Position numbers and translations under genes: made by a program. The notes below the pieces were generated by a model. The model was given only the letters and a program-made list of their open reading frames with translations, was not told where the DNA came from and did no database searches. From Desulfobulbaceae bacterium (GTDB lineage: Bacteria > Desulfobacterota > Desulfobulbia > Desulfobulbales > Desulfobulbaceae), in NCBI GenBank assembly GCA_012744275.1, contig JAAYIE010000091.1, positions 1 to 55,053 of the forward strand: a DNA stretch of 55,053 nucleotides. The letters run 5' to 3'. Positions 5,004 through 17,453 of the stretch are shown here, in pieces. The stretch's first letter is position 1, and every line of letters starts with the position of its first letter.

Positions 5004-6207
5004 GATATGCCTCATAATCGTGCGGGGTGTACGGTTCAGAAAACACCACATCCTTGGTGGTAATCACGTTGAACTGATAGCCGGGCCTGATCTCAAGGGT
5101 TGGCTTGATATTCAGGTTGCGCTGCAAAAGCTGCATGGCTGCACTGCCCATCTGCTGCGCCAGCGCGGTTATCATCTCATCCTGGAAGCTGGGGTTGTCT
5201 GAATTGCGGCCATTACTGTCTATTTCATCGAGCGTATAGGCTGTGGTGCCGAGAATGGCACTCATAAAAAAGGCGCTGCCAAAAATGCGCAGATAGTGAT
5301 TGTTCACCTTGTCATGGAATCCGGCATAGCCGCTCATGTCCGCGCCTGGCATGGCCCCCAGGGTAACCGAGCTGCCATCCGGAAAGATGATCCGGTTCCA
5401 GGCAATCAACACCCGCTCCTGGCCATAGACCACGCGCGAGTCATAGACCCCGTACAGCTTTGCGCCCTGTGGTATGAGTAAATGCCTGCCGTTTGAGGTG
5501 TTCCAGACGTTCTGGCTCACCTGGGCAATCATCACGCCTGGCAGATCAGAGTTGATGCCGCTGACCATGACCGCCGGAATCACGGTGCCGGTTTTGATTT
5601 CAAGAAGCCTGCCCTCTTCCCTGGTGTAGCGCCAGAGCCAGCCGCGTTCTCCGGCTCTCGTATCCGCCCTGGTGAAAAAGCCCTCCTTGTCAATATCTGC
5701 TGCCGGATCATAATTTACTGACTGTTGGCCGGGCAGTGTTGCCTGTCCAGGCCCCTTTGTTGCGCGGGCCTCCTGCCCGGCTTCTGCACCAGGCCCTTCT
5801 GTTCTGTTTTGTTTGGCGATCATGGGTGATGCCAGGGCAGCCAGATATTGCTGTTCCTTGCGCTTGCGCATGGCTTCTGCACCCTTGTCTGGTTCGCTGT
5901 CCTTCATCACCACCACCAGGGGCTTTTTAGGCTCCTCCTGAACTGGCGTGCCCTCCACCAGTGCCCCGGTGGTGGGCGGTGGCAGGATAATGCCGGTACC
6001 ATAGCCCTGGGCCAGGGCGCGTTGATCCACCTGCGGCTTGTTCTCCTCAGCTGCCCTGCGGGCATTGCGCTTGTCTGCCTGCTCGATTGCGTAAAAAAGC
6101 GAGACAATCAGGGCCAGAGTCACGCCCAGTACAATGTACATGGGCCGCTTGCTCATACCTCTTTTAGGCGGTTTTGGCGGTTGCAGGCTGTTTGGCGAGT
6201 CTTCCAT
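4981..6207 (-). CDS. trbI: TrbI/VirB10-type type IV secretion scaffold
   Basis: The product is 408 aa. It has a short cytoplasmic proline-rich tail, one membrane helix at about 22-41, a long periplasmic linker and the C-terminal VirB10 beta-barrel domain (IPAVMVSGINSDLPGVMIAQ, then IPQGAKLYGVYDS). VirB10 proteins span both membranes and sense ATP use by the inner-membrane ATPases. GGAGGGGGAAG lies just upstream of the ATG, 15 bp after trbH. The order G-H-I matches the IncP trb operon. Confidence 0.93.
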   Translation of the reverse strand: MEDSPNSLQPPKPPKRGMSKRPMYIVLGVTLALIVSLFYAIEQADKRNARRAAEENKPQVDQRALAQGYGTGIILPPPTTGALVEGTPVQEEPKKPLVVVMKDSEPDKGAEAMRKRKEQQYLAALASPMIAKQNRTEGPGAEAGQEARATKGPGQATLPGQQSVNYDPAADIDKEGFFTRADTRAGERGWLWRYTREEGRLLEIKTGTVIPAVMVSGINSDLPGVMIAQVSQNVWNTSNGRHLLIPQGAKLYGVYDSRVVYGQERVLIAWNRIIFPDGSSVTLGAMPGADMSGYAGFHDKVNNHYLRIFGSAFFMSAILGTTAYTLDEIDSNGRNSDNPSFQDEMITALAQQMGSAAMQLLQRNLNIKPTLEIRPGYQFNVITTKDVVFSEPYTPHDYEAYHAGPVRP

Positions 6208-6222
6208 TGTCTTCCCCCTCCC

Positions 6223-6672
6223 TTATTCTGCCTGGCCCTCGGCAAATCCACCCTGGGCCCGGCCCTGGGCATCATAGACCCGGCCAAATGTCCGCAGCCC
6301 TGTTTCATCCTGCACCTTGAGCCGCAGATACCAGTTGACCACCGGGTCTGTGTCACCAAGGCCGTCCACTGTCCAGCTGACCCGTGGCTCAGAACCGGAA
6401 ACTGGCTGAATCGTAAAGCCCCTGGCCCGCAAACTCCGTTCCAGCACTGGCCCGAACAGATCAACAACCTTCTGCCCTTTTGCCGTGGGGTATTGCAGGT
6501 ACAGGCTGGTATGGCCTGGCGGGTACAAGGTGGCCAGCCGGTTGGCTGCATCAAAGGCAATCCCGGTCAGGGCCGCTTCAGGCACCTCGCCAGTAAACGA
6601 CCGGCCAGTATGCTGGCCACAACCGGCGGCCAAAAAGGACACCAGAAGAAGAAAAACCAGTAAACGAGTCAT
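6223..6672 (-). CDS. trbH: TrbH-like outer-membrane lipoprotein
   Basis: A 149-aa lipoprotein. The signal peptide ends in the lipobox LAAGC, with Cys18 as the lipidated residue. The mature part carries IAFDAANRLATLYPPGHTSL, typical of TrbH-type proteins, and a region rich in beta strands. It probably belongs to the outer-membrane core of the transfer channel, in the role VirB7 plays elsewhere. The ATG overlaps the trbG stop (ATGA). Position between trbG and trbI supports the name. Confidence 0.8.
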   Translation of the reverse strand: MTRLLVFLLLVSFLAAGCGQHTGRSFTGEVPEAALTGIAFDAANRLATLYPPGHTSLYLQYPTAKGQKVVDLFGPVLERSLRARGFTIQPVSGSEPRVSWTVDGLGDTDPVVNWYLRLKVQDETGLRTFGRVYDAQGRAQGGFAEGQAE

Positions 6673-7601
6673 CGGTTAAACCTCCAGGGCAGGTCTTTTT
6701 CATCATCTGTGGCAGTGCTGCTGAAATGGCCAGGCATGGTGCCACCTTTGCGGATTTCAACCAGTTCCTGGGCATTGCCCACACCCACCACCAGGGCCAG
6801 ATGCGGAAAGAGCCCGTCAACTTCCATGGTAAGGCCCTTCACCCGGTAATTGACCAGCACATCCTTTTGACCCTTTTTCACCAGAAGGGCTGGCATCTCA
6901 CCGCTTCCTGTTGAGGACGGCAGCTGAATATACATCTTGCGGCCATCATCATAGACCCGCTCAGGCTTCCATGCGGCAGACCCGGACACATCATATTCAA
7001 AGTTGAGCTTTGATAAATCTGTGACTGCCCCGCTTTGATCTGCGGTGCTCTTCCACTTCTGCTGCCGCTGCTGCTGCGCCTGGTTGGCTGCCACCTGCCG
7101 TCTGAGATCATCCGCATAAACAAAACCGATATAGGGCGTAAAATCGTTTTTCCTCGATACCAGCCGCAGGTGATAGACCCGTCTGTCTGTGGTCACCACT
7201 GCACTGCTTTCAAGACCCACATCCACCGGCTTGATAAAGAGGTGGGTGCTGGCACCTGCTGTACCGCTTTCGACCTGCCATCTGGCTGAATCGCCCACCA
7301 CAATTTCATTGACCATTTCACCTGGTTCCAACTCCACATCCACCACCTGCAAAGGGGCAGCAATCACCACTGGAATACCGCCATCAGCACCATGCACGTA
7401 CACCAGCTGGCCACCCTGCATAAAAGAAGACCTGGCACCGCCTTTTCCTGTACCTGACCATTGCCGAACCAGATCAAGCACCCGTTTTTCCTTTGCGGTC
7501 AAAGGCACGGTGTCTGGTGACAAATACTCTGCTCCATGTGCAGGCATGGCCATCATTCCTGCCACGGCCAGCGCACAACACAACAATCCTGCTCGTTTCA
7601 T
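6669..7601 (-). CDS. trbG: TrbG/VirB9-type outer-membrane channel protein
   Basis: The product is 310 aa with a cleavable signal peptide (cut near MPAHGAEY). The N-terminal domain contains VYVHGADGGIPVVIAAPLQV, and the C-terminal domain has YDVSGSAAWKPERVYDDGRK, the usual VirB9/CagX signature, followed by KMYIQLPSSTG. VirB9 forms the outer-membrane ring with VirB7 and VirB10. ATGA overlaps join it to trbF upstream and trbH downstream. Confidence 0.93.
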   Translation of the reverse strand: MKRAGLLCCALAVAGMMAMPAHGAEYLSPDTVPLTAKEKRVLDLVRQWSGTGKGGARSSFMQGGQLVYVHGADGGIPVVIAAPLQVVDVELEPGEMVNEIVVGDSARWQVESGTAGASTHLFIKPVDVGLESSAVVTTDRRVYHLRLVSRKNDFTPYIGFVYADDLRRQVAANQAQQQRQQKWKSTADQSGAVTDLSKLNFEYDVSGSAAWKPERVYDDGRKMYIQLPSSTGSGEMPALLVKKGQKDVLVNYRVKGLTMEVDGLFPHLALVVGVGNAQELVEIRKGGTMPGHFSSTATDDEKDLPWRFNR

Positions 7602-8287
7602 CTGATCACCTTTGCTGTGGATAGGTTGGTGATGTACACCCCGCCAGGGTTGGCCAGAAGCACTTCTTCTGACTGTGGCGGCAGGATCTCCACCGTGGCT
7701 ATCGCTTCATAATTTTCCCGCGCAAGTTCCACGCCTTGCAGGTTGCGCACAATCTCGTTCCATTCGACCCGGTAACTGCCCTTGCTCACTGGCAGCGGGA
7801 TGCCCTTGACTTCAATGTTGACCAGGCGTCCAGCTTTGGCTACCTCATAGGGGCTGTTCTTCTCGTACCACTGCTTCAACATGCCCTTGCTGGCACCTGC
7901 CGTGTGCATGGTCAGCCTGCCAATCATCCGCCGTTGCAGTTCGGTATCAACCGTGACTGTGCGCCAGTCAACAATGGCCTGGGCAACCGCTGCCTGGATA
8001 ACCTTCTCAGGTGTGCTGCCGCCCTGGCCCTGGATCTTTTCTGCAACTGTCTTGCCCAGCTCATCCACTGCCACAAAGTAGCGCACCACCTTGACCTGGG
8101 TGAGCTGGATGATGTTGCCTGCAAGTGAGAGCACCGCGATAATCAGTGCCAGCACGGCTATCTTGCGCCACTGCGCTGCCCGGCTGATATAGCTGCCGTA
8201 GCGTTCCATCCATTCTTCCCGTGCGTTCAGGTATGGATTGTTGTCGCTGTCTCTGTCCCGCAATACGGTTTGTTTTATCGCGCTCAT
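7598..8287 (-). CDS. trbF: TrbF/VirB8-type inner-membrane protein
   Basis: I place the start at the ATG at 8287 (MSAIKQTVLRD); an upstream ATG at 8326 would add 13 lysine-rich residues. The product has a short cytoplasmic tail with NPYLNAREEWMERYG, a membrane helix near 45-65 and a periplasmic VirB8 fold. VirB8 proteins nucleate assembly of the channel and contact VirB10 and VirB9. Its stop overlaps the trbG start. The ribosome site for 8287 is close and imperfect (AAAGGG), so the start is uncertain. Confidence 0.9.
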   Translation of the reverse strand: MSAIKQTVLRDRDSDNNPYLNAREEWMERYGSYISRAAQWRKIAVLALIIAVLSLAGNIIQLTQVKVVRYFVAVDELGKTVAEKIQGQGGSTPEKVIQAAVAQAIVDWRTVTVDTELQRRMIGRLTMHTAGASKGMLKQWYEKNSPYEVAKAGRLVNIEVKGIPLPVSKGSYRVEWNEIVRNLQGVELARENYEAIATVEILPPQSEEVLLANPGGVYITNLSTAKVIR

Positions 8288-8362: not shown

Positions 8363-9841
8363 TTATCTTCCTTCTTTGGAGTTCTCTTTCTGCTGGCGCA
8401 GGGCTTCCCTTGAGGTGGCAGTGCTTCCGGTTGCCTGGGCAGCCTGATCTGCACCAGCTGTTCTGAATGGTGCAGCGCCGTGCTGACCTTCTGACCTGGC
8501 GTCTGCTGCGGCCTGGGCCTGGCCTGCAATGGAACCAAAGGACGCGGCTGCCTGCGCGGCTGGATTGGGCCTCTGGCTGAACGGGGCGGCTTGTGCAGTC
8601 CCACCGGCTGCTGCAACATAGGGGTTGCCGCTGAACTGGTTGCGGCTGTAAGGATTGCCCGTGTAGCTGGAATCACTTGCTGACCGGGCAGCGCTGTACA
8701 TATCACCCAGGCTGGAACCCATGCGCCGCAGTTCACCAACAGCGCTTGGCCCCACACCTGCCCGGCGTTCATCCTGCCGGGCTTCCTGGTAACTCCTCCA
8801 TATTTGGTTGGCTGTACCGCCAACCCCGCCTTCCCCTTGCAGGCTGGCAATCTTGGCTGCCCGGCTGACACCGGAGACCACGCCGCCAGCACCGCCCACA
8901 CCCTTGCTGGCAACAGCATAGGTGGCGGCCATCGCGCCCAGGGCAGCACCGGTCGCTGCCCGAAGGCCCACACCGCCGCCTGTATGTGAACCATTGATAA
9001 TGCCTGCAACGGTCTCCGGGATGGTCTGGATAATGACCAGGAGCACCAGAGACGCGGCCAGAAGGACAAAAAGCACTTCGTATGAGATTTTATCAAAATT
9101 ACCCAAATCCTTGATAAAGCTGATCCCAATGCCAAGGATCAGGTTCATGACCAGCACCTTGAACGCCAGGCTGACCACATAGCGCATGACGTTCACGGCA
9201 TATTCTTTCATAAATGAGGCCGCGCCAAAGCCAAGCAGCAGAATAGCAACGTTCATGGCAATGTAGGCCTCGCAGATCACCACCAGTATTCTGGCGCTCA
9301 TGAGCGCCAGGCAACACAGGATTACAGCACCAATAAGCAGATAGGCAATACCATCAACAACAGCAGAAAAACCCCAGGATAAGCTATTGATCTTTTCTAT
9401 AATTGTATTTAATATTGTAAATCCTAAATCTATTGGTGATAGTTCAAGTTCAGCACCACCAACGTTTGAAGAAATGATATCTGTTTTTTCCAGTATATAT
9501 TTTGTCCAGTCATGATAATACTGGATAGCTACATAACAAAATGCAGCAAAAAGAAGCATGATAATAAATTCTTTGATAACATCAGCGATTTCTGCCCTGC
9601 CAAGGGCAGCCTGGACACCAAAGACCACCACTCCAACCAGGAGAAAGAGTTTGAAAATGCCCAGGGCATAGCCTTTCAGCTTGGTGCCGTATTCTGTTGC
9701 CTTTGTCTCAAATTGAGTTTGAATTTGTTTGGCAACGCTTTGCTTTATTTCAGCTGCATTTGTTATGGATGCCGTACACGTAATTCCAATGAAAGAAAAA
9801 ACCAAAAATACAAGGGAGGTTGTTACAATGAATCGTGCCAT
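8363..9841 (-). CDS. trbL: TrbL/VirB6-type polytopic channel protein
   Basis: The start is taken at 9841 (MARFIVTTSL), giving about 492 aa; an upstream frame extends to 9877. It has an N-terminal signal-like helix, about six membrane segments between residues 45 and 290, and a long Gly/Ala/Gln/Ser-rich cytoplasmic tail, the usual TrbL layout. The N-terminal half, roughly 9370-9841, is visibly richer in A and T than the tail and the neighbouring trb genes. The 5' end overlaps by 14 bp an oppositely oriented lipoprotein gene. VirB6-family proteins are known targets of entry-exclusion factors in some conjugative systems (ConG of ICEBs1, TraG of SXT/R391 and F). Confidence 0.9.
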   Translation of the reverse strand: MARFIVTTSLVFLVFSFIGITCTASITNAAEIKQSVAKQIQTQFETKATEYGTKLKGYALGIFKLFLLVGVVVFGVQAALGRAEIADVIKEFIIMLLFAAFCYVAIQYYHDWTKYILEKTDIISSNVGGAELELSPIDLGFTILNTIIEKINSLSWGFSAVVDGIAYLLIGAVILCCLALMSARILVVICEAYIAMNVAILLLGFGAASFMKEYAVNVMRYVVSLAFKVLVMNLILGIGISFIKDLGNFDKISYEVLFVLLAASLVLLVIIQTIPETVAGIINGSHTGGGVGLRAATGAALGAMAATYAVASKGVGGAGGVVSGVSRAAKIASLQGEGGVGGTANQIWRSYQEARQDERRAGVGPSAVGELRRMGSSLGDMYSAARSASDSSYTGNPYSRNQFSGNPYVAAAGGTAQAAPFSQRPNPAAQAAASFGSIAGQAQAAADARSEGQHGAAPFRTAGADQAAQATGSTATSREALRQQKENSKEGR

Positions 9842-10097
9842 TCCTGTTGCCTGTTTCCTTTTCCTGGCGCTTACCATTTCTTCCTGCGATCAGTCTACGT
9901 CAAACAAATCCACACAAACAAACCAGCAATCAAGTAGTACATCATCTACCGTCAATAATTCAAAATCAGATGAAAACCTGGTGCCCCTGGTTACAGAAGA
10001 AGAAAAACGGAGAGCAGAGGAACAACACAAGGAGGCCACCAAAAACGAAATATTGAATAAAGGAGACGATAATTCGGGAAAAATACGTTTATACTAA
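9828..10097 (+). CDS. Inverted small lipoprotein in the TrbK (entry exclusion) position
   Basis: An 89-aa lipoprotein on the plus strand, opposite to every other gene of the element. AGGGAGG lies eight bases before the ATG. The signal peptide ends with ISSC, with Cys20 as the lipid site. Then come a Ser/Thr/Asn/Gln-rich linker and a charged helix (EEKRRAEEQHKEATK). The last residues, GDDNSGKIRLY, are nearly identical to the TrbJ end GDDNSGTIRLY, and the stop codons of the two genes overlap. RP4 trbK, an exclusion lipoprotein, lies exactly between trbJ and trbL, which suggests the same role here. It is AT-rich. Antisense transcription from the trb operon would cross it. Confidence 0.65.
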   Translation: MNRAIPVACFLFLALTISSCDQSTSNKSTQTNQQSSSTSSTVNNSKSDENLVPLVTEEEKRRAEEQHKEATKNEILNKGDDNSGKIRLY

Positions 10098-10176
10098 TAC
10101 AAACGTATAGTTCCTGAGTTATCATCCCCGGAATTAAGGATTTCTGTTTTTGTTGCTTCCTGATGCTGGGCATTGG
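10016..10176. repeat. Imperfect inverted repeat formed by the ends of the lipoprotein gene and trbJ
   Basis: The 3' ends of the plus-strand lipoprotein gene and the minus-strand trbJ gene are similar at DNA and protein level, giving a tail-to-tail inverted repeat of roughly 65-80 bp per arm centred on 10095. The core ATACGTTTATA matches ATACGTTTGTA on the other strand. Identity falls away from the centre. It may also act as a two-way transcription stop. Confidence 0.75.
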
Positions 10177-10876
10177 CCATTTCTTCCTGCTTTTCTGCCT
10201 TCATCTGCTGGGTAATTTCAGATTGTGCCTGGGTAGCCGCCAGTTCCCGGAACTGGCGCATCTCCTGAATCTGGAGCGCTGCCAGCTGGTTGCCTGCCTG
10301 AATTGCTTCCATGTGCCCTTCAGGATCGTTAAGCAGATTTTCCAGGTAATCTCGCAGTTCACCGCTTTCTTCCATATCCTTCAACTGTCGGCCTGAGAGC
10401 TGAAAGGTGGCCATGGTGGCCTCATCAATGGCCTTTGACCATTCCTCGTAGTGTTTCTGGTACTTCTCATTGGCAGCCTTGATCTCATCCCGTGTTGCCC
10501 CTGCCAGGTCGGCAAATTCACTCTGTTCAGGGAAGAGCTCGTTAAATATCTGGGCCAGAAGGTTTTCATCTGCCCGGTAGGTGTTGAGCTGGGCGGTTTT
10601 GTGCGCCAGGTCAAGCAGGGTATCCAAAGGGTTGTTGCGCAGGTCTTCACCCAGTTGTTTCAGATTCTTGATCTGCATTTCAGTCTGCTTGATGGCTTCC
10701 TTGGTCTGACTGACCAGTTCTGCCAGTTCTGCCAGCTGGGTTGCGTATTCCAGGGCTTGTTGCAGGTTGGTACTACAGTTAGCGCAGACAAAGGCATAGG
10801 CGTTGGCAGTGCCAGGCTGCTGACAAATCAGGAATGCGGACAAGGCAGCTATGGAAAACAGTTTTTTTATCTTCAT
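10094..10876 (-). CDS. trbJ: TrbJ/VirB5-like secreted transfer protein
   Basis: The product is 260 aa with a signal peptide cut near GTANAYA. The mature protein is almost all helix and coiled coil (LAELVSQTKEAIKQTEMQIK), as in TrbJ and VirB5, minor components at the pilus tip that help contact the recipient. A CANC pair lies just after the cleavage site. GGGGGA lies six bases before the ATG. The C-terminal EILNSGDDNSGTIRLY is shared with the inverted lipoprotein next door. Confidence 0.88.
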   Translation of the reverse strand: MKIKKLFSIAALSAFLICQQPGTANAYAFVCANCSTNLQQALEYATQLAELAELVSQTKEAIKQTEMQIKNLKQLGEDLRNNPLDTLLDLAHKTAQLNTYRADENLLAQIFNELFPEQSEFADLAGATRDEIKAANEKYQKHYEEWSKAIDEATMATFQLSGRQLKDMEESGELRDYLENLLNDPEGHMEAIQAGNQLAALQIQEMRQFRELAATQAQSEITQQMKAEKQEEMANAQHQEATKTEILNSGDDNSGTIRLY

Positions 10877-10952
10877 GACAGTCCCCCGTTGAGTTTTTCT
10901 TTTTGGCGTATCCTTCAGCCAGGCACTTATGCCCGGCTAGTATTCAAATAGT

Positions 10953-13364
10953 TCAGATTGCCCCGCGTTCCCGCAGCCATAGTTCCTGCCAGCCTTCAGG
11001 GTGCTCTGTCATGAGCGCCCGAATCCTGGCTATGCTGTCCCGATCAGATGCACCGGTAAAGGCCAGGGTTTTTGGGCCCAGCGCCAATTGCACTCGTCTG
11101 CGGCCAGAGGGCTGCACAATGTAGTAGTCCTGCTTGGGCGTCATGGTCTTGGCAATGATTGAAATCTGCCGTTCATTCAATCCGGCCATGCGGTAAAGCT
11201 GGGCAGGCTGCTCTTCTTCAGCTGCATGGTTGGCCAGGAATATCTTGGTTGGGCAGGATTCCACAATAACGTCCATGATGCCTGAGTTGCTGGCATCGGA
11301 AATGCTCTGGGTAGAGAGCACCACTGCGCAGTTTTTACGGCGGTAGGTCTTCAGCCATTCCCGGATCTTGTTTCTGAAGATGGGATGCCCCAGCATGACC
11401 CAGGCCTCATCCAGGATCAAAAGCCCTGGCTGGCCCTTCAGGGCTTTTTCAATGCGGTGGAACAAATATTCCAGTACCGGAATCAGGTTGGATTCACCCA
11501 TTTCCATAAGTGATTCAATCTCGAACACCACAAAGCTGGACAGCTCCAGATTATCAGTCTGCGCATCGAGCAGGTGCCCCAGGGCTCCGCTCTTGGTGTA
11601 GTGCTTGAGCGCCTGTTTCAACTCCTGATCCTGGATCACATGCCAGAAGTCTGTCAGGCTGCGCATGTTTTCCGGGTTGTAGCGCAAGGTATCCAGGGCC
11701 TGATGAATCGCGTTTTTATGCACCGGTAAAACAGTCATCTTTTGCAGTTCAGCCAGGCTGGCTATCCAGTTTGCTGCCCAGGAAAATTCCTCTTCAGATT
11801 CGTCAATGCGCTGAAGCGGAGCAAAGGAGAGCGCACCCCGGCCTATGTCGTGATGGTCGCCGCCTGCGCCACTGGCCAATGCAAACATGGACAGGCCCTT
11901 GTCAAAGACAAAGATGGATGCTTGGGGATATGTTCTGAACTGCGCCACAATCAGGGCCAACAGCGTACTTTTGCCGCTGCCAGTGGGGCCAAGAATCACT
12001 GTATGGCCCAAATCGCCCTCGTGCAGGTTTAGTCGGTAGGGGGTGCTGCCATCTGTGGTCAGCACTGCCAGGCTGCGGGAATGCTCCGGGTAGAAGGGGC
12101 AGGGATTATACGCATGGCCTGTCCAGGCGCTGGAGAGTGGCAGAAAATCTGCCAGGTTCATGGTATTGACCAGGGGTCTGCGCACATCTGCCCAGCCATT
12201 GCCCGGGTGCGTACCCAGCCAGGCTTCAAGAGTGTTTATGGTCTCGATCCGGCCTGCAAAGCCCAGGGACATGAACAGACGCCGCACTTCCCTGGACATT
12301 TCCGCAAGTAACCTCTGATCTCCATCCATGAGCACCACGCAGGCCGTAAGAAAACCAGCGCCCACCGCACCTGATCTGACCTCAGCTTCGGCCTGTTCCG
12401 CATCTTCGTGCATATTGGCTGCATCCCGGTTGATGCGCGGGTTCTTCTTGCTGGTGAGCTGGTCAATCACCCTGGTCATGGACTGCTGCCAGCCCTTGCG
12501 GTACTTGTTGATTTCCTTGACCGCATCCCACTGATCGAGAAAAAGATAACGGATGCAGAAACGGTACGGCAGGGACAGGCTGTCCAGCCTGGAGAGCATG
12601 GCTGGCCAGGACTCCAGGGGAAAACCGCCCAGGCCGACTACGCTGATATAGTTGTCACCCAAAACCGGGGAGGTGCCGTCCAGGGTCAGATCACCTGCGC
12701 CCAGTACCGCATCCAGGTACATCGGTACCGGTGGTACCCTGATCAGCTGATTCTCTCCGGTCAGGCAGAGTTGCAGGTGACTGAGCAGGTCTGATACTGT
12801 AATGCGCTCATCACCATTCATGGATGGGCGCTCTTGCAGGCGCTCCATCTTCAGCACCGAAGCCAGGGTGTCTTCAACCTGGTGCAGCATGAGCTGAAAG
12901 TATTCCAGGGTCTCGTCAAAAATGTTGGTTTCCTGGTTGTTCTGCGCCTGCCGGGCCAGCTTTGCTGCCTGGAAATTCGGTTTGTAGCTCAGACAAAGCA
13001 CGGTGGTGGTGGAATAGCACCAGTCTGCGCCAAAAAAAGCCCGGCGCTCATCATCAATCATCTGGGTGATTGCATCAGGGAAACGGCTGGACTCTTCCGG
13101 CGGATAGGCCCGGCTGTATTCCCTGTTTGCATTCATGTGCAGCATCCAGCCCGTACCCAGTTGGCGCAGGGCATCATTGGCCTTGCCGCTGATCCAGGCC
13201 ATTTCATCAAAGGTGGAACTGGCCGTGTCCTGGCCGCGCACTGTCCAGGCAGCAAGCAGACTGCCGTCCTTGTTCAGCACCACGCCTGGCGCAACCAGGG
13301 CTGCCCAGTGGAGCAGATCTGGCAGACCCTGTGCCTTTGGCCTGTAGTCCGCAAGTCGAATCAC
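10953..13364 (-). CDS. trbE: TrbE/VirB4-type transfer ATPase
   Basis: The start is set at the GTG at 13364, overlapping the trbD stop (GTGA), with AGGA seven bases upstream; an in-frame TTG at 13388 is less likely. The product is about 803 aa and begins RLADYRPKAQGLPDLLHWAA, the usual TrbE opening. Walker A, GPTGSGKST, lies near residue 460, and Walker B is LLILDEAWVML. VirB4-family ATPases power pilus assembly and substrate transfer at the inner membrane. Confidence 0.95.
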   Translation of the reverse strand: MIRLADYRPKAQGLPDLLHWAALVAPGVVLNKDGSLLAAWTVRGQDTASSTFDEMAWISGKANDALRQLGTGWMLHMNANREYSRAYPPEESSRFPDAITQMIDDERRAFFGADWCYSTTTVLCLSYKPNFQAAKLARQAQNNQETNIFDETLEYFQLMLHQVEDTLASVLKMERLQERPSMNGDERITVSDLLSHLQLCLTGENQLIRVPPVPMYLDAVLGAGDLTLDGTSPVLGDNYISVVGLGGFPLESWPAMLSRLDSLSLPYRFCIRYLFLDQWDAVKEINKYRKGWQQSMTRVIDQLTSKKNPRINRDAANMHEDAEQAEAEVRSGAVGAGFLTACVVLMDGDQRLLAEMSREVRRLFMSLGFAGRIETINTLEAWLGTHPGNGWADVRRPLVNTMNLADFLPLSSAWTGHAYNPCPFYPEHSRSLAVLTTDGSTPYRLNLHEGDLGHTVILGPTGSGKSTLLALIVAQFRTYPQASIFVFDKGLSMFALASGAGGDHHDIGRGALSFAPLQRIDESEEEFSWAANWIASLAELQKMTVLPVHKNAIHQALDTLRYNPENMRSLTDFWHVIQDQELKQALKHYTKSGALGHLLDAQTDNLELSSFVVFEIESLMEMGESNLIPVLEYLFHRIEKALKGQPGLLILDEAWVMLGHPIFRNKIREWLKTYRRKNCAVVLSTQSISDASNSGIMDVIVESCPTKIFLANHAAEEEQPAQLYRMAGLNERQISIIAKTMTPKQDYYIVQPSGRRRVQLALGPKTLAFTGASDRDSIARIRALMTEHPEGWQELWLRERGAI

Positions 13365-13669
13365 TTTCTGTATCCTTCCCTTGCCCAAAAGGGGCTGCGT
13401 GCCCGGTAAAAATTTTTATAGCCCATGTGCCTGCGCCATACCCTGGTCATGTCCGGGTCTGCCTTGGCCATCCTGCGGAACACAAAGACCACGCCAAAGT
13501 AGAAAGCCAGGGCTATGAAAACCGTAACAAAGGCTGCCTGTACTGCACCGACAATGCCGGTAATAATCGCCATGAGCGCCGCGCACATGACCGGTTCACG
13601 TTCACCGCCCATGACCAGCTCTGGCCGGTGCAGGCTCTGCCGGATCGGGATTGACCTGGGTTCATCCAT
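13361..13669 (-). CDS. trbD: TrbD/VirB3-like inner-membrane protein
   Basis: A 102-aa protein with PIRQSLHRPELVMGGERE at the start, the conserved TrbD/VirB3 opening, two adjacent membrane segments near 28-65, and a basic C-terminus containing KADPDMTRVWRRH. VirB3 proteins work closely with the VirB4 ATPase, and in some systems the two are fused. TGATG joins it to trbC upstream and GTGA to trbE downstream. Confidence 0.92.
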   Translation of the reverse strand: MDEPRSIPIRQSLHRPELVMGGEREPVMCAALMAIITGIVGAVQAAFVTVFIALAFYFGVVFVFRRMAKADPDMTRVWRRHMGYKNFYRARSPFWAREGYRK

Positions 13670-15142: not shown

Positions 15143-15619
15143 TCAACCCCCCAAAAGAAACAGCGCCACAAACACGCCAACATTCACCAGGGCACTGATG
15201 GTGGTGATTGCTGCCAGCCAGAACATGCTTGTTGTATGCTTTTGCAGGGCAAATTCATGCTGCCGCATGGCCTCTTGCTGGCCTGAAAAAGCAGTGTGCA
15301 GGGATTGCACAGCCTCAGAAGCCAGGGTGTTGCCCAGGGCATCAAGCGTCTGTTGCACTGACTGGACAAAATTGTCTGTTTTGTCAGACATGACCTGGGC
15401 AAGTGCCCCTTTGTGGCGCTCCTGCAAGGCGTGCTGTTGGCTCAAAAAGACATTGCACAGGGGCACCATCATCATGATTGGATCGTCTACCCTGACAATG
15501 GTCTCACTTTTCTTGCTCAACTCCTCTGCAATTTCCTCATAGCCAAGGCCAATTCCATCGGGCAGCGCTGGCATGGCAGGAGGGGTCTGAGCTGTTTTGC
15601 CTTCGTCTTCAGCGCTCAT
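15143..15619 (-). CDS. traM: TraM-like membrane-anchored transfer protein
   Basis: A 158-aa protein with an acidic, proline-rich N-terminus, a helical middle containing DDPIMMMVPLCNVFL, a coiled segment, and a C-terminal membrane helix (about 133-155). RP4 TraM is a small protein of similar size encoded beside TraL and TraK. Here the gene follows traL and the Rha-family gene and overlaps the latter's stop (ATGA). The function of TraM in IncP transfer is poorly defined. The name rests on layout and order. Confidence 0.65.
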   Translation of the reverse strand: MSAEDEGKTAQTPPAMPALPDGIGLGYEEIAEELSKKSETIVRVDDPIMMMVPLCNVFLSQQHALQERHKGALAQVMSDKTDNFVQSVQQTLDALGNTLASEAVQSLHTAFSGQQEAMRQHEFALQKHTTSMFWLAAITTISALVNVGVFVALFLLGG

Positions 15620-16542
15620 GACTGTTCCTCACCGTCATCCACCTGGGGTGGTGGTTCTTCTGATTTGCAATGTTTGCCGTCTGCCTTTTGCGCACGACGC
15701 TTGATCTCGTTAATGGTCAGGGTTTGCACCAGGTGCTGATGCAGCATGTTGTAGGCAATGCCTGCGATTCGTTTCGCCTCGCCGCTGGAAGCAGCCACAA
15801 TGGTTTCAATGCTGACCCCGTACTCTTCCTGCAAGAGGTCATAGATGTCCCTGTCCCGCGAATACCTGAACTGGGCGCAGGCTTCCACCAGGCATTTGAT
15901 GGTGTTGATCTGTTCCTCAGTGGCAGGCTGCGTGTCCTTGTTGGAATGGACAATCACCCGCTCAAGAAAGTCGGACATCTCGCTGAACTGATGTCGGGAC
16001 AGGTCAAGATCATCAAGTCTGCGCAGCCTGCCAACGGCGCAGACCGCAGACTCCGCCGCTGCAAGCGGCATCTCTTCAAGCATGGCCCAGTATGCAGCCT
16101 GTGCCCGCAGCAGGTTCAGGCCCCGCTGGTTACGCACAGTATCCGCCTCCCTGGGAGGTGTTGGACAGATTTGTTCCAGCGCCTGCGTCAGCCCGCCGAT
16201 CCAGATTTTTTGTTGAAGCAGCTCCGCTTCCATAGCATTGAAGGCCGCTATGTAGGCTTCTTTCCAGATGGCTGCCTTTGCGCCGGTAAATCCCATGCAA
16301 AGGAAGCTGAACCCGTCGCGGGTCATTTCGTAGTAGGGAAACTCTTGTCCTCTGTAGGTAAATTTAAGTTGCGCAAAATTGCGCACCTTAAATTCCTGGG
16401 AACAGTCAAGCAGATCAATTGCACGAATAACATCCCTATGCTGTTTGCCGAACTTCTTGGCAATGTCTCTGGATGAAGCTGTCACTTTCCCGTCTTGTAC
16501 GGTGAGGGCCAGATCGGAAGTAGTTGGCTTTTGATTACTCAT
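15616..16542 (-). CDS. Rha-family regulatory protein inside the conjugation operon
   Basis: The start at 16542 (MSNQKPTTSD) follows CAGGAGC. The 308-aa product carries a Rha domain at about 10-110: VTASSRDIAKKFGKQHRDV, then FKVRNFAQ, YYEMTRDGFSFLCMGFTG and AFNAMEAEL. Rha proteins are phage and prophage proteins linked to infection control in IHF-lacking hosts. The C-terminal two thirds are helical and unrecognised, ending in an acidic tail. A Rha protein between traL and traM is not part of the RP4 plan, so it may be an operon-borne regulator taken from a phage. Confidence 0.8.
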   Translation of the reverse strand: MSNQKPTTSDLALTVQDGKVTASSRDIAKKFGKQHRDVIRAIDLLDCSQEFKVRNFAQLKFTYRGQEFPYYEMTRDGFSFLCMGFTGAKAAIWKEAYIAAFNAMEAELLQQKIWIGGLTQALEQICPTPPREADTVRNQRGLNLLRAQAAYWAMLEEMPLAAAESAVCAVGRLRRLDDLDLSRHQFSEMSDFLERVIVHSNKDTQPATEEQINTIKCLVEACAQFRYSRDRDIYDLLQEEYGVSIETIVAASSGEAKRIAGIAYNMLHQHLVQTLTINEIKRRAQKADGKHCKSEEPPPQVDDGEEQS

Positions 16543-16678
16543 GGTATGCTCCTGCAAGGCCGTCACAGGTTATGAACCGGTACCCCGCGCCAAAAATGGC
16601 GAGGGGCTGTATTTCGATCTCCTCATTTTTGAGGTGAGTGAGCTCTTCTGGTACTTCAATCGCCTCGATAATTTTCAA
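16535..16678 (-). CDS. Possible 47-aa protein between traL and the Rha gene
   Basis: A short open frame with a TTG start, reading MKIIEAIEVPEEL and ending GLAGAYHE. It fills most of the 170-bp traL-rha gap and overlaps the rha start by 8 bp, as other junctions in this operon do. The upstream GGGA is weak and an in-frame TGA lies two codons before the TTG. No domain is recognised. It may be real, or part of a leader for rha. Confidence 0.35.
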   Translation of the reverse strand: MKIIEAIEVPEELTHLKNEEIEIQPLAIFGAGYRFITCDGLAGAYHE

Positions 16679-16712: not shown

Positions 16713-17453
16713 TCACTCATTGGGCAGCGCGTCAATAATCCCTGTCTTATCAATAGCCTGGCACACTTCGCTCCAGAAAATTTTCAGCCGTTGCCTGGTC
16801 ATAACCGGCAGGGATGCATCCACTGCGGCCTGGGCAAAGGTCTGGTGGCGAGAAAAAAGCTCCTCAAGATCCCTGCCGAATGTTTGCGGTGATTTCATTG
16901 GAATGTAGATGAGTCCTGCAATCTGGTCCTGATTCTCGCGGTATACCTTGAACTCCTCGAACTGCTTCCCAGCTGTGGCGATTTCGCCAAAATAGCGGTT
17001 CAGCCACACCACCAGCGGCACAGTGGGAAAATGACGGGCCAGAGACACCAGGCCGTCAGCTGTTTCCTTCATTGCCTGGCCACCGGTAAATACCGTATGC
17101 ATCAGCACTCGCATCCCGGCTTCCTCAAGAAAATCAACTGTCTGATTTTCCTTCAGATACGAGCTCAGGGGAACAAAGGTGGCAGCACCGTTGTCCACCA
17201 CCACATCGTCTGATGCACTCAGAACAGCCTCAATGAGCTGATCGAATCTGCGCCGATCAATGTCGTCGCCCTTCATCAGCTTCAACTCTTGCACCGGCAA
17301 GTCTTTGTACCCAGTCAGGGTTTGGTTGACAGGATCTGTATCAAAGGCAAGTATTTCACGGCCTTGCTCTATCAAGTACTGGCATAAAAGAGAGGCTACA
17401 AGTGACTTCCCGACCCCGCCCTTTCCCTGCAATATCAAATGGACAGTTCGCAT
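16713..17453 (-). CDS. traL: TraL-like ParA-family ATPase
   Basis: A 246-aa P-loop ATPase with the deviant Walker A KGGVGKS at 11-17 and AFDTDPVNQT as switch I. RP4 TraL is a 241-aa nucleotide-binding protein encoded beside traK and traM, so size, fold and position agree. Its job in transfer is not well known; a role in positioning the transfer machine is plausible from the ParA fold. AGGA lies seven bases before the ATG. Confidence 0.82.
   Translation of the reverse strand: MRTVHLILQGKGGVGKSLVASLLCQYLIEQGREILAFDTDPVNQTLTGYKDLPVQELKLMKGDDIDRRRFDQLIEAVLSASDDVVVDNGAATFVPLSSYLKENQTVDFLEEAGMRVLMHTVFTGGQAMKETADGLVSLARHFPTVPLVVWLNRYFGEIATAGKQFEEFKVYRENQDQIAGLIYIPMKSPQTFGRDLEELFSRHQTFAQAAVDASLPVMTRQRLKIFWSEVCQAIDKTGIIDALPNE

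Follow-up and report, generated by a model that had tools for sequence, protein, structure and literature searches.

A lipoprotein gene convergent with trbJ carries a copy of the TrbJ tail: a candidate entry-exclusion determinant in a Desulfobulbaceae conjugation cluster

The closest described counterparts of the gene considered here are the exclusion genes of conjugative plasmids. Among the tra2 genes of RP4 and traF, each expressed on its own in recipient cells, trbJ and trbK were the only two that gave protection from killing by the RP4 machine; the same source states that both had earlier been reported to block RP4 entry (PMC11045733). VirB5, the counterpart of TrbJ, forms the pilus tip (PMC12624023), and its pentamer sits on a pentamer of VirB6 (PMC9259494). 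In the TrbK of pKPC_UVA01, the C-terminal region is essential for exclusion; according to the discussion of that paper, the donor factor recognised by IncP TrbK has not been identified (PMC8923210). The subject of this report is a small lipoprotein gene that lies between trbJ and trbL in a trb-type conjugation cluster of a Desulfobulbaceae bacterium, within a stretch of 55,053 nucleotides (contig JAAYIE010000091.1 of assembly GCA_012744275.1) that is called the window throughout. The encoded protein ends in a copy of the TrbJ tail. The two tails co-vary locus by locus, they are constrained at the level of the protein, and the same pattern is seen in most of the sampled plasmids of mating-pair-formation type T (MPF_T).

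The gene order in the window is trbL, lipoprotein gene, trbJ. This is the position that genes of the TrbK/EexN type occupy, between trbJ/virB5 and trbL/virB6. The lipoprotein gene, however, lies on the opposite strand to the trb genes, while genes for TrbK and EexN lie on the same strand. A first-pass annotation, made from the sequence letters, had already noticed an opposite-strand lipoprotein gene in this gap, with stop codons that overlap tail to tail. Both observations hold, the lipobox being read directly and the TAA at 10095-10097 (+) overlapping the TAG at 10096-10094 (-), with a lipoprotein/trbJ overlap of 4 nt at 10094-10097. As originally drawn, at 9828-10176, the feature begins correctly; its end runs into trbJ, the open reading frame (ORF) stopping at 10097. 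At its other end the gene overlaps the first trbL codons head to head, over 14 nt (9828-9841). The protein has the anatomy of an anchored lipoprotein, being short (89 amino acids) with a signal peptide, an ISS-C lipobox and Asp at +2, as read by eye from the translation. No second lipoprotein-like frame is found in the gap among the listed ORFs of at least 50 amino acids.

The central observation concerns the end of this protein. Counted by eye, 20 of its last 26 residues are identical to the last 26 of TrbJ, so that the copy of the TrbJ end reported in the first-pass annotation extends well beyond the 11 residues quoted there. Searches of the bacterium's own genome with one protein find the tail of the other (E = 1.1e-8 and 1.9e-7). 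A degenerate DNA pattern for the tail has two sites in the 2.83 Mb genome, which are the two tails, and its reversed control has 0. Because of these E values and of a pattern with those two sites only, chance is excluded as the cause of the match. When the window TrbJ is compared with 34 exclusion proteins, the tail of its own lipoprotein scores best, at 86, and the next scores 41.

The TrbJ tail is predicted to be a flexible end that follows a long helix. The model behind this prediction is of moderate quality, with a mean predicted local distance difference test (pLDDT) value of 67; residues 243-260 fall below 50, and the last 12 residues are predicted coil. Foldseek of this model against the Protein Data Bank gave no match at E <= 0.001, and a TrbJ-family profile found six chance-level matches, none to VirB5, among the sequences of that databank. 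Viral contigs held no relative of the TrbJ family.

Relatives of trbJ were searched for in the genus (23 genomes), the family (73), the order (257) and 395 genomes sampled evenly from the phylum. By our own count, these gave 21 distinct loci in which the 3' end of trbJ is intact; ten have a convergent lipoprotein, three a convergent secreted protein, and eight neither, as far as could be seen. The co-variation of tails that had been predicted from the window sequence was found in every one of the ten convergent-lipoprotein loci (the window, C106, L016, L009, L010, L011, L013, L026, L027 and L042), the lipoprotein tail matching its own TrbJ, and permutation supports it. C106 is a contig of the same genome that bears a second trbJ with a convergent lipoprotein. 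Here, TrbJ ends in NGPKNDKKFRLY and the lipoprotein in NAPKNNKKFKLY; both tails differ from those of the window, and yet they agree with each other.

The bodies of these lipoproteins are far less alike. Overall identity to the window lipoprotein is 57-58% for C106 and 17-24% for L016, L009, L010 and L011, and the lipoproteins of L027 and L042 are, by eye, apparently unrelated to it. Judged from these sequences, what is common to the convergent lipoproteins is the tail match and the anchor, while the bodies differ. The lipoprotein frame of L013 has no start codon, and the gene may be broken. The loci with no convergent gene seen in the gap (L028, L029, L030, L035, L036, L039, L040 and L041) were classed as such from their listed ORFs and a text pattern that resembles a lipobox. 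Left out of the counts were a near-identical copy of the window (G011/L015) and truncated trbJ matches in G018 and G008.

Two trbJ loci occur in four genomes (G000, G002, G139 and G390), and within each genome their tails differ. Both trb copies carry the lipoprotein in G000 (contigs C54 and C106) and in G002 (contigs C2 and C55). Differing tails are, of course, expected in two-cluster genomes if equal tails exclude each other; the two relevant cases, from fragmented assemblies, are no more than suggestive.

The same match is found between genes that lie on one strand. MPF_T plasmids were sampled by gene position, not by tail, a pair being formed when a small annotated gene lies between virB5/trbJ and virB6/trbL; 24 of 30 regions gave a pair. 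As for the rest, trbJ is not annotated in L053, the EexN accession in L074 is the same as that of R388, and L047, L049, L063 and L068 have no small annotated gene directly between the two flanking genes (a 525-nt hypothetical gene before a type IV secretion system gene in L049 was left out of the pairing). In Campylobacter coli, TrbJ ends in GSSWGKSNPDALKWK and EexN in GSSWGKSNPDALKWK, and VirB5 and EexN of Campylobacter L054 have 15 identical end residues. The paired tails are YSRDREEQLARARAAAGM and YSRDREDQMARARKAAGM in Sphingobium wenxiniae, TKPTPIGTYQN and TKPTPIGTYQN in Sphingobium YBL2, and NRDIRSGQTMEPRW and DRDVRSGQEMKPRW in Mesorhizobium. The match is clear in R751 (TrbJ GSYRASPARTW, TrbK GDFKPSPKREW), as it is in a Campylobacter plasmid, and short in R388 (QGMPTIQ and DGMPKIR, sharing GMPxI). 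In the Ti-type TrbK of L046, the last 27 residues match the last 26 positions of the NCBIfam TrbJ model with E 0.0012, at 18 bits, far under the model's cut-off. The copy is present in proteins annotated as exclusion proteins, R751 TrbK, R388 EexN and the L046 TrbK among them; many of the tail-copying plasmid proteins carry exclusion names, and others are called hypothetical. The co-variation of tails predicted from the window extends to most annotated TrbK/EexN proteins that were paired with their own VirB5 on plasmids.

One further region, L103, holds, around a single trbJ, an array (reverse complement, 5532-8053) of tandem eex-like lipoprotein genes whose tails are related without being the same. 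One of these genes has an in-frame stop, and one is followed by a truncated trbL-like piece. A near-exact TrbJ tail in an intact frame is present only in the gene adjoining trbL.

The strength of the match was scored as a local BLOSUM62 alignment of the last 20 residues. Over 34 pairs (10 convergent and 24 same-strand), the cognate scores sum to 1647, against 541 +/- 55 for random pairing, with 0 of 100,000 permutations reaching the cognate sum; in 25 of the 34 pairs no other element's exclusion protein outscores the own one. When three non-matching convergent secreted proteins are added, to make 37 pairs, the cognate sum is 1688 against 576 +/- 53 for shuffled pairs, again with 0 of 100,000 permutations reaching it, and the own protein is best or tied in 25 and strictly best in 20. 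Separately, the 13 convergent and the 24 same-strand pairs each give 0 of 100,000. So does each set thinned at 60, 40 or 30% TrbJ-body identity, which leaves 21, 12 or 10 pairs, with the own protein best or tied in 18, 10 and 8 of them. A segment 25-45 residues from the end gives no signal (13.6 for cognate pairs against 13.7), where the tail gives 48.4 against 14.9.

Within loci, the exclusion-protein tail beats the tail of every other ORF in 28 of 34 cases, the exceptions being L050, R46, R388, L067, L069 and L070. This comparison covers 2,599 other ORFs in all, of at least 40 amino acids and on both strands, most stretches being 2-4 kb rather than whole elements. As a replicate, a TIGR02780 search of the phylum sample gave 8 further loci. 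A gap gene with a membrane-anchored look was seen in five of these (L083, L093, L095, L096 and L097) and had the best tail match in all five, L095, L096 and L097 coming from one genus and the margin in L097 being thin (29 against 27). No membrane-anchored-looking gap gene was seen in L098, L099 and L100.

A bias in composition was noticed post hoc. Relative to the VirB5 tail, the last 12 residues of the exclusion tails gain 32 lysines and lose 5, with 17 of these gains at positions 3-4 counted from the end; a hand-reduced set shows 23 gained and 3 lost. The bodies of the exclusion proteins are also richer in lysine (8.3 against 4.6%). The set for lysine and charge was the 34 pairs with L083, L093 and L097 (37 in all), the lysine count using the 34 pairs that score at least 20.

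The codons indicate the level at which the match is held. Over the last 20 codons of the window tails, the proportion of differing synonymous sites (pS) is 0.87 and that of differing nonsynonymous sites (pN) 0.14, and the mismatches at codon positions 1, 2 and 3 number 2, 3 and 13. The test across loci used only pairs scoring at least 38, nine convergent and twelve same-strand. The nine convergent pairs, with 170 aligned codons, have 54, 28 and 102 mismatches at the three positions, with pS 0.84 and pN 0.24. Because their synonymous sites are saturated while the residues are kept, the tail match is old and is held at the level of the protein. The twelve same-strand pairs give pS 0.60 and pN 0.26; pS is low in L054 (0.37) and L064 (0.24), whose tails may, on this evidence, be recent copies.

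These observations make it somewhat probable that the window protein is a convergent, lipid-anchored analogue of TrbK/Eex, in which the copied tail would confer exclusion specificity by acting as a decoy of the tip protein. Under this hypothesis, the signal peptide and lipobox would place the protein in the envelope. By the lipobox and +2 rules, under which Asp at +2 holds a lipoprotein in the inner membrane, the inner membrane is the predicted site. A spacer would then present the C-terminal peptide, with its copy of the flexible end of TrbJ (VirB5), the tip protein of the same element's pilus. When a donor meets a cell already carrying the element, the decoy would occupy the docking site of the donor's TrbJ tail, and with the dock blocked, the transfer channel could not complete its connection. 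Candidate docks are TrbL/VirB6, which lies beneath VirB5, and the VirB5 pentamer. The tail would, in turn, be a tag of self-identity, because each element's lipoprotein copies the TrbJ tail of its own element. The protection of recipients by trbJ and by trbK of RP4 is as expected if presenting a TrbJ tail suffices. The idea of an exclusion lipoprotein that mimics TrbJ came with the first-pass annotation and, after testing, has the best support of the readings considered; we infer the exclusion itself, as we do the inner-membrane location, the docking of the decoy and the identity of the dock.

Some evidence on the dock comes from pairs of loci that differ in tail. In L011 and L013, which are trb loci from a single genome, the first 650 nt of trbJ have 85-98% DNA identity. 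Identity is 36% at the tail, 47-64% through eex and 53-82% over the front two thirds of trbL, and is then back at 85-90%. Besides the N-terminal 40, the TrbL residues that differ most are 121-160 and 221-240. The window and L016 give the same cassette picture at lower identity, and L009 and L010, which share one tail class, show no drop (76-92%, with 71% in the first 150 nt). Where the tail class switches, as in L011/L013, eex and a portion of trbL change along with the tail. L011/L013 and window/L016 thus support TrbL as the reader of the variable tail residues; the window and C106 contradict it.

This contradiction is one of several points that weigh against the decoy hypothesis. The tails of the window and C106 differ, yet TrbL residues 41-300 are 80-100% identical. 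Because the tails changed and this part of TrbL hardly did, TrbL need not read the variable tail residues, which weakens docking on TrbL; it may nonetheless be the dock. In pKPC_UVA01, TrbK is needed in the donor too (PMC8923210), which a simple decoy in the recipient does not predict. The window lipoprotein matches no TrbK/Eex model (TIGR04359, TIGR04361, NF033894) at E <= 1. The convergent secreted proteins of L037, L038 and L044 have neither lipobox nor tail match (scores 16, 19 and 6); the TrbJ tails at these three loci end in DPF. The own exclusion protein is outscored in 9 of 34 pairs by that of another element, sometimes a close relative. In the R388 record, 16 of 496 other ORF tails score as high as EexN, and the pairs from Vibrio L050, L067, L069 and R46 are weak or negative.

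Other explanations of the match can be set beside the decoy. It could be the by-product of a DNA inverted repeat that serves for termination in both directions or for antisense control, and a repeat is indeed present, with 71-nt arms that are 70% complementary and an RNA fold with z = -5.84. A long inverted repeat and an RNA hairpin arise, however, because similar proteins are encoded in opposite orientation. The mismatches fall mostly at third codon positions, and of the 112 residues shared in the nine convergent pairs, only 43 have the same codon in both genes; the fraction expected from codon usage in the window tail is 0.43, so that codons show no clear avoidance of a perfect palindrome. 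The junction lacks a G+C-rich stem with a T run, and a scan of 9500-11100 found one terminator-like site (10160-10176, inside trbJ) against 2.3 by chance. Same-strand genes match too, and form no inverted repeat. A DNA palindrome or terminator as the cause is ruled out by codon positions and same-strand pairs, and antisense overlap, which may make the two transcripts mutually exclusive, is ruled out as a general cause of the match because the match is also seen with both genes on one strand; a DNA-level origin thus retains very little probability. Equally hard to credit is a sorting or processing signal shared by several envelope proteins of the element. Such a signal would account for a C-terminal tag common to two exported proteins, but in 28 of the 34 loci the stretch has no other ORF whose tail matches TrbJ as well, and the tag, unlike a general signal, varies among close relatives, changing in both proteins at once.

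The lipoprotein might instead have no role in exclusion and serve the donor machine as a partner in its structure or assembly, either a second protein that docks the VirB5 tail or one like VirB7. Its genetic position between the VirB5 and VirB6 genes would suit such a partner, and a shared tail may imply a shared partner within one machine. Yet the gene runs opposite to the trb genes, no such gap gene was seen in 8 of 21 related trb loci, many plasmid proteins with this tail feature are named for exclusion (others being called hypothetical), and deletion of trbK leaves transfer of pKPC_UVA01 largely intact (PMC8923210). This alternative is improbable, if less so than a DNA-level or sorting origin. 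The main rival is contact of like with like, in which the lipoprotein tail in the recipient would itself bind the identical tail of the donor's TrbJ, or the TrbJ assembly, with no third protein as reader. It would explain why both tails differ in step between the window and C106 with TrbL residues 41-300 hardly altered, a case where no co-variation of TrbL was seen, and the need for pKPC_UVA01 TrbK in both donor and recipient fits it better than a decoy (PMC8923210). Direct pairing is, however, not favoured by charge: the net charges of paired tails correlate positively (r = 0.46, 37 pairs), strongly opposite charges occur in 0 of 37 pairs and strongly same-signed ones in 2. In L011/L013 and window/L016, moreover, trbL changes along with the tail. 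On balance, like-with-like contact is considered unlikely.

The copied tail may be one case of a general rule for MPF_T systems, for and against which our judgment is evenly balanced. Under this rule, an exclusion protein of any anchor, body or orientation would carry a copy of its own VirB5 tail, and the hypervariable tail would be an exclusion barcode. New exclusion groups would arise when a cassette is swapped that comprises the VirB5 tail, eex and a portion of VirB6; eex genes that keep older tails could build up into arrays. The convergent arrangement suggests that selection keeps the tail, rather than the body or the orientation. If exclusion proteins do carry a VirB5-tail decoy, the recognised part of the donor narrows to one flexible peptide and its dock, mutual exclusion among conjugative elements would have a predictor readable from sequence, and entry exclusion would be tied to the pilus tip. 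Tail copying thus points to a way in which a cell with one copy of an element might recognise a second and turn it away.

The features of the locus are collected in Table 1. TrbJ matches the tip-protein profile TIGR02780 at 117.9 bits (cut-off 100.55), and TrbL matches TIGR02783 at 137.9 bits (cut-off 128.85). The trb-type cluster on the minus strand of the window includes a coupling protein (Pfam T4SS-DNA_transf), trbL, trbJ and trbE; further ORFs, named by eye, fit other trb genes by order and appearance. A small lipoprotein-like ORF at 6223-6672 (-), in the trbH/virB7 position, has 54% identity between the window and C106 and is the most divergent of eight trb ORFs compared (67-82% in the others). 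A homologue of the phage regulatory protein Rha (15616-16566, -; PF09669, E 1.4e-25) adjoins the cluster, and a ParA/CbiA-like ATPase (16713-17453, -; PF01656, E 1.5e-9) lies near it.

Table 1. Positions in the window of the lipoprotein gene, its parts and the adjacent trb genes.
Feature	Position	Strand	Basis or remark
Convergent lipoprotein gene, proposed exclusion protein	9828..10097	+	89 amino acids; ORF and translation
Shine-Dalgarno-like GGGAGG	9814..9819	+	8 nt upstream of the lipoprotein ATG; sequence
Lipobox cysteine codon (Cys20, I-S-S-C; Asp at +2)	9885..9887	+	translation, by eye
Copied tail of the lipoprotein, EEQHKEATKNEILNKGDDNSGKIRLY	10017..10094	+	20/26 residues as in the TrbJ tail
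TrbJ tail, NAQHQEATKTEILNSGDDNSGTIRLY	10097..10174	-	translation
trbJ (VirB5-like tip protein, 260 amino acids)	10094..10876	-	NCBIfam TrbJ_Ti TIGR02780
trbL (VirB6-like)	8363..9841	-	NCBIfam TrbL_P TIGR02783, Pfam PF04610; ATG at 9841
trbE (VirB4-like ATPase), upstream neighbour of trbJ	10953..13388	-	NCBIfam TrbE models, best E 3.6e-267
Imperfect inverted repeat from the two tail-coding stretches	10023..10168	.	arms 10023-10093 and 10098-10168

Neither the window lipoprotein nor its relatives score above the curated cut-offs of Pfam or NCBIfam; one relative, L042, reaches 21.1 bits to Eex_IncN (E 2e-4), under the cut-off of 33. The R751, Ti-type, R388 and Campylobacter proteins do match their own TrbK/Eex models. 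A weak match of the window lipoprotein to an NCBIfam pore-forming toxin family (E 1.3e-4) has 21 bits against a cut-off of 380 and spans the signal peptide and the low-complexity spacer. The protein thus appears TrbK/Eex-like by anatomy, and departs from those families in two features, the family model and the strand. A search of the literature, in the portions accessible to it, gave no report of exclusion proteins that copy the VirB5 tail; older TrbK papers may mention it.

Comparison with known systems makes these likenesses specific. The TrbK of IncP plasmids such as RP4 (TIGR04359) is likewise encoded by a small lipoprotein gene between trbJ and trbL, and in R751 its tail nearly copies that of TrbJ. 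It differs in lying on the same strand as trb and, in R751, in matching the model that the window lipoprotein does not. Proteins of the EexN family (NF033894; IncN R46, IncW R388, Campylobacter L054 and others) are also lipoproteins encoded between the VirB5 and VirB6 genes, with a tail that copies VirB5 in many (L054, L073, L070), shortly in R388 and weakly in R46. Their genes, unlike that of the window, are on the same strand, and for R388 and L054 the match to the family model is confined to the body, ending before the tail. The Ti-type TrbK (TIGR04361) resembles the window protein in gene position between trbJ and trbL and, in L046, in a tail that copies TrbJ; it differs in its strand, again the same as trb, and in having an N-terminal hydrophobic segment without a lipobox, as read from the sequence. 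Contact-dependent inhibition systems carry arrays of orphan immunity genes, to which the row of eex genes in L103, a single example, bears some likeness, the difference being that exclusion is involved rather than immunity to a toxin. TraS/TraG of F and ExcA/TraY of IncI belong to different mating systems, yet they are like the present proposal in that an exclusion protein recognises a part of the donor machine, the target in both being the VirB6 homologue (PMC12624023; PMC11493245).

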